Shown here: positions 41,167 through 45,093 of the stretch, one piece after another
How positions within the stretch are numbered: the first letter of the stretch is position 1
Layout: every line of letters begins with the position of its first letter
Program-made: the position numbers and the translations under genes
Source: Planctomycetota bacterium
Lineage (GTDB): Bacteria; Planctomycetota; Phycisphaerae; SM23-33
Length of the DNA: 53,359 bases
Assembly: GCA_012729725.1 (NCBI GenBank)
Contig: JAAYCO010000246.1
Coordinates: 1-53,359 of the forward strand
Direction: 5' to 3'
Notes under the pieces: generated by a model
The model's database searches: none
Told to the model about the DNA's origin: nothing
The model's input: only the letters and a program-made list of their open reading frames with translations

Positions 41167-41470
41167 ACGAATAAACATACCCGCACGCAACCAGCACGAC
41201 GCAAGAAGCCCCGCATTGCCATGCGGGGACCTTACTTCACGTCGCGTAGCGACACCTCGCCGTTGTATTTGTTTTTCGTGCGATGATCACGATGCGAACC
41301 AACAGCAAACGGCGAGGATTCGCTGCGCGATAGCTATCAGGTCCCCGCATTGCCATGCGGGGCTTCTTACGCTGGGCCCGTTGCGATGCCTGGATGCGGT
41401 GCGAAATAAAACGGCCCCGCCGGGCATCGTGTGGATGCCGGCGGGGCCGGGATTCTGCGGGGATGAAGAA
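41167..41470. other. Intergenic stretch filled by a palindromic element
   Basis: The 304 bases between the HEAT protein and the PEP-CTERM protein (convergent 3' ends) contain no supported gene. Most of it is the dispersed palindromic element at 41201-41372, followed by a GC-rich stretch with GCCGGGCATCG...GATGCCGGCG (about 41418-41446), a further inverted repeat that may terminate the PEP-CTERM gene or the HEAT gene. Confidence 0.6.
41201..41372. repeat. Dispersed imperfect palindromic element, copy 1 (complete)
   Basis: About 172 bases. Each end is a small hairpin, CCCCGCATTGCCATGCGGGG, and the inner parts are also inverted copies of each other: left GCGTAGCGACACCTCGCCGTT, right AACGGCGAGGATTCGCTGCGC (shown as separate arms). 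The centre is around TGATCA. So it is a long nested inverted repeat. It lies between convergent genes and may act as a two-way terminator. Related copies lie at 49.6, 51.6 and 52.6 kb. Confidence 0.75.
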
Positions 41471-42019
41471 TTATGCCAGTCTGCGACGCTTGAGCAACAG
41501 CCCGCCGCCCATGCACATCATGGCGATGGTCACGGGTTCAGGCGTGCCGGTGACGGTCATGTTTCCGGTCACCCTGGCGGCGGATGGGGTGATTCCCATC
41601 ACCGAGCCGAATTCTACATTCGTTAGATCAACATGTGCGTAGCCAACGGAGTCTACATAAATGTTGATCGTCGCGCTGCCATAATCATTTCCCATGGCCT
41701 CGTTCATGATTGTAATGGGCGGGGTGCCATACTTGACGCCGCTGCCACTTTTTTTGTCAGCAGGAACCTCATCTATTGCCGATACCCAGTCCCCCATACC
41801 CAAAAAGGTGACGTAGATTTCAAGATCCGTGATGTTATAAGAGTAGTCGTACTGACTGAAGTGAGTATCCACGGCTGTTGGCGATGTCCAAGACAAGGTA
41901 CCATGGTTCTGAACTGTGAGGCGTGTAAAGTTCCACGTTGCAGGATTCTCCGCCAGCGCCGTTGACGACGCCAATACAAGAGCACAGACGAGTACGGCAA
42001 AATTCCGAGCATTGGGCAT
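41471..42019 (-). CDS. PEP-CTERM sorting-domain protein
   Basis: About 182 aa from ATG 42019 (MPNARNFAVL), with AGGAGAGAG upstream; the track start at 42073 is unsupported. Signal peptide VLVCALVLASSTALA. The C-terminus has the classic PEP-CTERM tripartite signal: TPEPVTIAMM (PEP motif), a hydrophobic helix MCMGGGLLL, and the basic tail KRRRLA. The mature region is beta-rich with Tyr/Asp/Ser residues. Exosortase is expected to cleave or anchor it at the cell surface; the exosortase gene is not in the window. The function of the mature part is unknown. Confidence 0.85.
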   Translation of the reverse strand: MPNARNFAVLVCALVLASSTALAENPATWNFTRLTVQNHGTLSWTSPTAVDTHFSQYDYSYNITDLEIYVTFLGMGDWVSAIDEVPADKKSGSGVKYGTPPITIMNEAMGNDYGSATINIYVDSVGYAHVDLTNVEFGSVMGITPSAARVTGNMTVTGTPEPVTIAMMCMGGGLLLKRRRLA

Positions 42020-42202
42020 GATCTCTCTCCTTTGTGAGCCATTGCCTTCGTTTGAGCGCCTCCAACGAGCCATCAGAGACGTTAACTTAGTATATTAAAC
42101 GATTCATTGGTCGAATCAAGCTTGAGAAGTCAAATATCCGCATCTCCACTAAAAAAATCTTCTCTCACCTAAGGTGAAGACCTTATGGAAGGGGGGAATA
42201 AC

Positions 42203-42260: not shown

Positions 42261-42330
42261 GGCCGATTCGCCTGCCGTAATGGCAACCAATCGGCCCGAC
42301 AGACAGCACATGGCAGGGTGTGGCGAATCG
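42261..42330. promoter_or_regulatory. Overlapping inverted repeats upstream of the sigma-54 promoter
   Basis: GGCCGATT (42261-42268) pairs with AATCGGCC (42289-42296), and CGATTCGCC (42264-42272) pairs alternatively with GGCGAATCG (42322-42330). The two pairings share the same left arm, so they are mutually exclusive as hairpins. They may be activator sites or, if transcribed, alternative structures. Confidence 0.4.
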
Positions 42331-42358
42331 CAAGTATTGTCAAGATAATGACTTACGG

Positions 42359-42374
42359 TGGCACGAGATTTGCA
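42359..42374 (+). promoter_or_regulatory. Sigma-54 (RpoN) -24/-12 promoter of clpB
   Basis: TGGCACGAGATTTGCA matches the consensus TGGCACG-N4-TTGCW without a mismatch; GG (42360-42361) and GC (42372-42373) are separated by exactly ten bases. It points to clpB, with the expected start of transcription about 55-60 bases before the ATG. Sigma-54 promoters need an AAA+ activator bound upstream. Confidence 0.75.
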
Positions 42375-42393
42375 TTACTAATATTGTCTGTCT

Positions 42394-42432
42394 ATGGCCG
42401 GCGGTTTTGGCCCTGGCGGCGACTGGAAATGA
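42394..42432 (+). other. Possible 12-codon leader ORF before clpB
   Basis: MAGGFGPGGDWK followed by TGA, sitting between the predicted sigma-54 start site and clpB; its TGA overlaps the TGAGG that could serve as the clpB ribosome site. No Shine-Dalgarno of its own is visible. It may be chance. Confidence 0.2.
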
Positions 42433-42441
42433 GGCCCCGAC

Positions 42442-45067
<2,626 letters not shown>

Positions 45068-45093
<26 letters not shown>

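Follow-up and report, generated by a model that had tools for sequence, protein, structure and literature searches.

A conserved sigma-54 promoter and upstream palindrome at clpB, and a candidate NtrC-type activator of chaperone genes in Planctomycetota

Sigma-54 promoters have been predicted at the chaperone genes of Planctomycetota and Bacteroidota in a survey (PMC12316311, PLoS One 2025) whose accessible portion describes enrichment at the genes for GroEL, GroES, GrpE, DnaJ, DnaK and IbpA in Planctomycetota and, in Planctomycetia, at COG0542, the group of the Clp ATPases. The absence of HrcA from Planctomycetes has likewise been noted already (PMC4989314), and NtrC-type control of one heat-shock gene is known from Myxococcus (PMC9109919). 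In Rhodopirellula baltica, heating raises ClpB, DnaK, GroEL, GrpE and Hsp20 on arrays; the known heat-shock sigma-factor genes were unregulated, rpoN mRNA was unchanged, and the authors proposed that the response cascade of this organism differs significantly (PMC2754498).

How does a single clpB locus compare with these systems? The gene described here comes from a MAG whose ClpB relatives put the host in or near Phycisphaerae, Planctomycetota. It lies behind a sigma-54 promoter and an enhancer-like palindrome, both of which recur at the clpB genes of relatives and at other chaperone genes of the phylum.

Promoter and enhancer upstream of clpB

In the window (the whole stretch of 53,359 nucleotides that was analysed), the features around clpB are as follows.

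41471–42022, minus strand: PEP-CTERM-like open reading frame, divergent neighbour of clpB, ending in PEP...LLLKRRRLA
42273–42285, plus strand: UAS, the enhancer palindrome TGCCGTAATGGCA, conserved at the clpB of relatives and paired with sigma-54 sites at dnaK, groEL, hsp20 and other genes
42308–42318, plus strand: possible second enhancer half-site ACATGGCAGGG, with TGGCA at 42311–42315, 30 bp past the TGGCA of the first
42331–42355, plus strand: a further dyad, CAAG-N17-CTTA, in the linker from enhancer to promoter, resembling the TAAS-N17-STTA of other chaperone promoters
42359–42374, plus strand: sigma-54 promoter TGGCACGAGATTTGCA, mismatch-free and conserved at the clpB of relatives
42442–45093, plus strand: clpB, ATP-dependent disaggregase of 883 aa (TIGR03346; Pfam Clp_N, AAA_2, ClpB_D2-small)

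The ClpB identity is secure at 1339.9 bits to TIGR03346 (cut-off 1232.1). A reading made from the sequence alone had proposed a perfect RpoN site in front of the gene, and the proposal holds: TGGCACGAGATTTGCA has no mismatch to the TGGCAC-N5-TTGCW consensus, its -24 GG (42360–42361) and -12 GC (42372–42373) are exactly 10 bp apart, and the clpB ATG lies 83 bp downstream of the site. A transcript start is predicted near 42385. The site is the sole match within the window even when one mismatch is allowed. Since 2.25 matches with at most one mismatch are expected there by chance, the motif alone is not proof of a clpB promoter; it goes beyond chance because it is conserved upstream of the clpB genes of relatives. 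Over the whole source genome, the exact motif is found eight times, against three for the reversed control. The genome encodes RpoN (Sigma54_DBD, PF04552, E 7.9e-57) and six strong enhancer-binding proteins.

Conservation was assessed on 97 sequence-distinct upstream regions of clpB, for which 49 of 60 relatives and 80 named Planctomycetota contigs supplied the loci; a site had to lie within 250 bp of the gene, with GG and GC obligatory and no more than two other mismatches. On this basis, 67 of the 97 regions have a site in the sense direction and none in the antisense, against 119 of 4799 random windows of the same loci (2.5%), and at the dnaK genes of relatives the figure is 29 of 30 (16 of them perfect) against two antisense, all of these clpB and dnaK counts being drawn from related sequences and so not independent. 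The sequence-only reading had made its case depend on whether orthologous clpB genes keep the motif, and most of them do. The distance from site to start codon varies at clpB, mostly within a range of about 27–172 bp, and since the motif is kept while the distance varies, it behaves as a functional element rather than as a product of general sequence similarity. The remaining 30 regions, those of Ca. Brocadia among them, have no site at this criterion. (At the thresholds applied, the Brocadia-type clpB genes, from Ca. Brocadia and relatives (L100, L101, L109, L115), lack both the sigma-54 site and the palindrome.) Within the source genome, dnaK has the site TGGCATGCCAATTGCA, and an Hsp20-like gene, named by translation, has the perfect site TGGCACGTCTGTTGCA 86 bp before its ATG. 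One contig of that genome, C49 (L001–L005), holds five of the eight perfect motifs together with two enhancer-binding proteins; one of its sites precedes an Hsp20-like gene.

The palindrome at 42273–42285 would supply the upstream enhancer that a sigma-54 promoter calls for. Across the phylum its consensus is CTGCCA-NNN-TGGCAG, and the positions that the search pattern left free are also conserved (A 81%, T 90%, outer C 78%). In a set of 114 sequence-distinct chaperone promoters (52 clpB, 33 dnaK, 18 groEL, 7 hsp20 and 4 others), the UAS lies 72–103 bp from the -24 GG (at clpB and elsewhere it is mostly 70–103 bp upstream of the -24 box), most commonly 77–82 or 86–91 bp, with peaks near 79 and 88; no clear 10.5-bp periodicity, as helical phasing would produce, was found in these spacings. 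In many relatives the sigma-54 site of dnaK has no UAS that passes the strict criterion (9 of 30 pairs). The possible half-site has similarly placed counterparts, TGGCAG or TGACAG, at the clpB of same-family relatives (read by eye), and two relatives (L333 and L334) have two full UASs 33 bp apart. The dyad between enhancer and promoter also recurs: TAAS-N12..18-STTA is present in 16 of the 114 UAS-promoter linkers, where 2.9 would be expected, and a spacing of 17 is the commonest.

The usual heat-shock control elements were sought at the same locus. Upstream of the window's clpB, shuffled sequence matches CIRCE, HAIR, CtsR and sigma-32 sites just as well as the real sequence does, the best CIRCE match having 8 of 18 positions mismatched, in agreement with the sequence-only reading, which had seen no CIRCE, CtsR or sigma-32 site there. 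Nor did any sigma-70 match there stand out from shuffled sequence. An hrcA gene is found in none of 100 genomes of the class, and a search of 156 genomes of the phylum gave one weak match, the same search detecting HrcA in 7 of 14 control genomes.

Shared targets and a candidate activator

The UAS and sigma-54 site were combined into one search pattern, which found 92 matches in 198 Phycisphaerae genomes, compared with 30 for the reversed control; the genes downstream of these matches include clpB, dnaK, hsp20, htpX, groEL and htpG. In other families of Planctomycetota, the pattern precedes dnaK, groEL, groES, clpB, hsp20 and lon. These names were read from translations by eye or from short signature motifs and checked on representatives with NCBIfam, which supports them, the Hsp20 and HtpX representatives falling below the model cut-offs. 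When tuned to the family, the pattern has only two matches in the source genome, at clpB and dnaK.

The unchanged rpoN mRNA of heated R. baltica (PMC2754498) tells against sigma-54 control of such genes, though the activity of sigma-54 is normally set by its activator. Which protein would act at this enhancer? Nearly all of nine Phycisphaerae have activators of GAF type, of a short PspF-like type and of the NtrC-type response regulator class, and the last of these provides the candidate in the source genome:

G000:C2:18937-20280: candidate activator, NtrC-type response regulator (L191)

Its domains are Response_reg, Sigma54_activat and HTH_8, that is, a receiver, an AAA+ sigma-54 interaction domain and a Fis-type HTH. 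Among the best-scoring named subfamilies listed, NtrC, AtoC, ZraR and PrsR included, there is none whose cut-off it reaches. The recognition helix of this response regulator is nearly invariant, close to GIGERTLYRK, as the UAS is.

Gene order points the same way. In three genomes (G297, G247 and G335) the best match to the regulator lies directly upstream of a UAS, a sigma-54 site and dnaK, and a histidine kinase gene directly precedes the regulator; in two more (G287 and G305) dnaK is the next gene after the regulator, and the stretch between the genes contains two UASs together with a sigma-54 site that has two mismatches. Together the five genomes represent four families, all different from that of the source. 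In a tree of the AAA-HTH part, the dnaK-linked L338 and L340 fall in a clade beside the Phycisphaerae regulators with moderate support, and L339 is unplaced. Several Phycisphaerae relatives, too, have a kinase gene in front of the regulator gene; the kinase of one relative (L213:342-1058) has only HisKA and HATPase_c in Pfam and is not a hybrid histidine kinase of the HsfBA phosphorelay type. In the source genome, the regulator does not adjoin dnaK, and no kinase gene lies within about 10 kb of it. A UAS that could serve autoregulation was sought upstream of the activator genes, with no convincing match in three activator groups.

The other activator types have neighbourhoods of their own. The GAF-type activator (L190, L200, L201, L204–L206), present in all sampled Phycisphaerae, adjoins a gene for a secreted porin-like protein in several of them, sometimes with a sigma-54 site between the two, and may have a separate regulon of its own. 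The PspF-like short activator (L231–L240), also found in all sampled Phycisphaerae, adjoins rnf-like electron-transport genes (by translation) in several.

The proposed circuit and its rivals

The explanation that we consider probable is that clpB belongs to a sigma-54-dependent heat-shock, or protein-quality, regulon, in which an NtrC-type regulator would act at the UAS. RpoN polymerase would wait as a closed complex at 42359–42374. The response regulator would bind the palindrome at 42273–42285, probably aided by the half-site at 42311–42315, and would then loop over and open the clpB promoter with ATP. The likely trigger is phosphorylation of the regulator, because relatives encode it beside a small histidine kinase; this kinase, which has no recognised sensor domain, would relay protein-folding stress. 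That heat or misfolding is the signal is suggested by the list of targets and by the R. baltica arrays (PMC2754498). In Planctomycetota, the circuit would drive clpB, dnaK, groES/EL, hsp20, lon, htpG and htpX. The sequence-only reading had put forward that RpoN controls clpB by way of an AAA+ activator, and the conserved promoter and palindrome, the shared regulon and the rpoN gene give this good comparative support.

A sigma-54 promoter might instead answer to a different activator, PspF-like (the L194 group) or GAF-type (the L190 group). In each of the nine Phycisphaerae sampled, both groups are represented by a best match, and a chaperone could restrain a PspF-like protein that has no receiver domain. 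However, the recognition helices of both groups differ between genomes in which the UAS is identical, and neither group was observed next to a chaperone gene, unlike the response regulator, which adjoins dnaK in four families; both types were set aside as activators at the chaperone UAS, and we regard this explanation as unlikely. It is somewhat less likely still that clpB is transcribed mainly from a sigma-70-type or sigma-32-like promoter, with the sigma-54 site in a minor or auxiliary role. Planctomycetes do seem to encode RpoH (PMC4989314; PMC2754498), and Chlamydia has tandem sigma-66/sigma-54 promoters at hrcA-grpE-dnaK (PMC8762339), but the failure to find a sigma-32 site, or a sigma-70 site that stands out from shuffled sequence, in front of the window's clpB speaks against such an arrangement, and the strong conservation of the UAS and the -24/-12 elements argues for a main role of sigma-54.

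The sequence-only reading had also linked RpoN control of clpB to the PEP-CTERM/exosortase programme through PrsK/PrsR. The divergent neighbour of clpB does indeed resemble a PEP-CTERM protein, as that reading had said, albeit with no matching Pfam or NCBIfam model, and contig C49 has two response-regulator-like activators and five further sigma-54 sites. The link itself is not borne out: a PEP-CTERM reading frame lies near clpB at one of 90 loci, solely that of this window, it is chaperone and protease genes that recur as targets, and none of four source-genome activators tested reaches the PrsR cut-off of TIGR02915 (502.6 bits). L191 scores 389.7, L195 316.4 and L193 290.9, and the identification of the candidate activator as PrsR was rejected on this score. 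We consider a PEP-CTERM role highly improbable. Nearby, at 41186–41385, is a MITE- or REP-like inverted repeat of 47 nt, 83% complementary, with arms 106 nt apart, a separate hairpin in each arm (CCCCGCATTGCCATGCGGGG) and a second, nested repeat. That the motif at clpB is a chance one without function is equally hard to credit: about two one-mismatch matches would be expected in a window of this size, but strand-specific conservation over 97 clpB and 30 dnaK regions has already refuted that reading.

The preferred explanation, a sigma-54 regulon under an NtrC-type regulator, can be extended to the phylum, where the sigma-54/UAS arrangement is apparently the replacement for the usual heat-shock regulators. 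A single two-component system dedicated to the task might, with sigma-54, carry the core heat-shock response of Planctomycetota: a small kinase, which free DnaK perhaps keeps inactive, would phosphorylate the NtrC-type activator, which would switch on clpB, dnaK, groESL, hsp20, lon, htpG and htpX through CTGCCA-N3-TGGCAG enhancers. We would give this broader proposal about an even chance. If it is true, the core chaperone genes depend as a group on an ATP-requiring activator and sigma-54, in a circuit driven by activator and ATP, unlike HrcA repression or sigma-32 titration. For a phylum without HrcA, the enhancer, promoter and candidate activator together offer a directly testable answer.

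Comparison with known systems

In the openly readable literature that was searched, no earlier description was found of this enhancer, of the candidate activator or of the promoter architecture at clpB. The survey of sigma-54 promoters (PMC12316311) proceeded by COG and, in its accessible portion, names no enhancer sequence, activator or clpB promoter and gives a smaller presence in Phycisphaerae. HrcA/CIRCE and sigma-32 control have the same targets elsewhere (clpB, dnaK, groESL, hsp20 and lon), but HrcA is missing here, and CIRCE and sigma-32 sites were not seen. PrsK/PrsR (TIGR02915/TIGR02916) is alike in pairing a sigma-54 response regulator with a kinase; the regulator here falls below the PrsR cut-off, and the locus has no conserved association with PEP-CTERM genes.

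In Chlamydia trachomatis (PMC8762339), a member of a related phylum, the dnaK operon has a sigma-54 promoter as it does here, with AtoC as the activator. Unlike here, however, HrcA is kept, the sigma-54 promoter stands in tandem with one for sigma-66, and rpoN goes down on heat shock. In Myxococcus xanthus, HsfB/HsfA controls lonD (Ueki and Inouye 2002, in PMC9109919), again an NtrC-like regulator of a heat-shock gene, and there the control is direct. As described in the accessible text of PMC9109919, and compared with our system by description, HsfB/HsfA serves one heat-shock gene and secondary-metabolite genes through a hybrid kinase, whereas the putative planctomycete system would serve the core chaperone set through small kinases.
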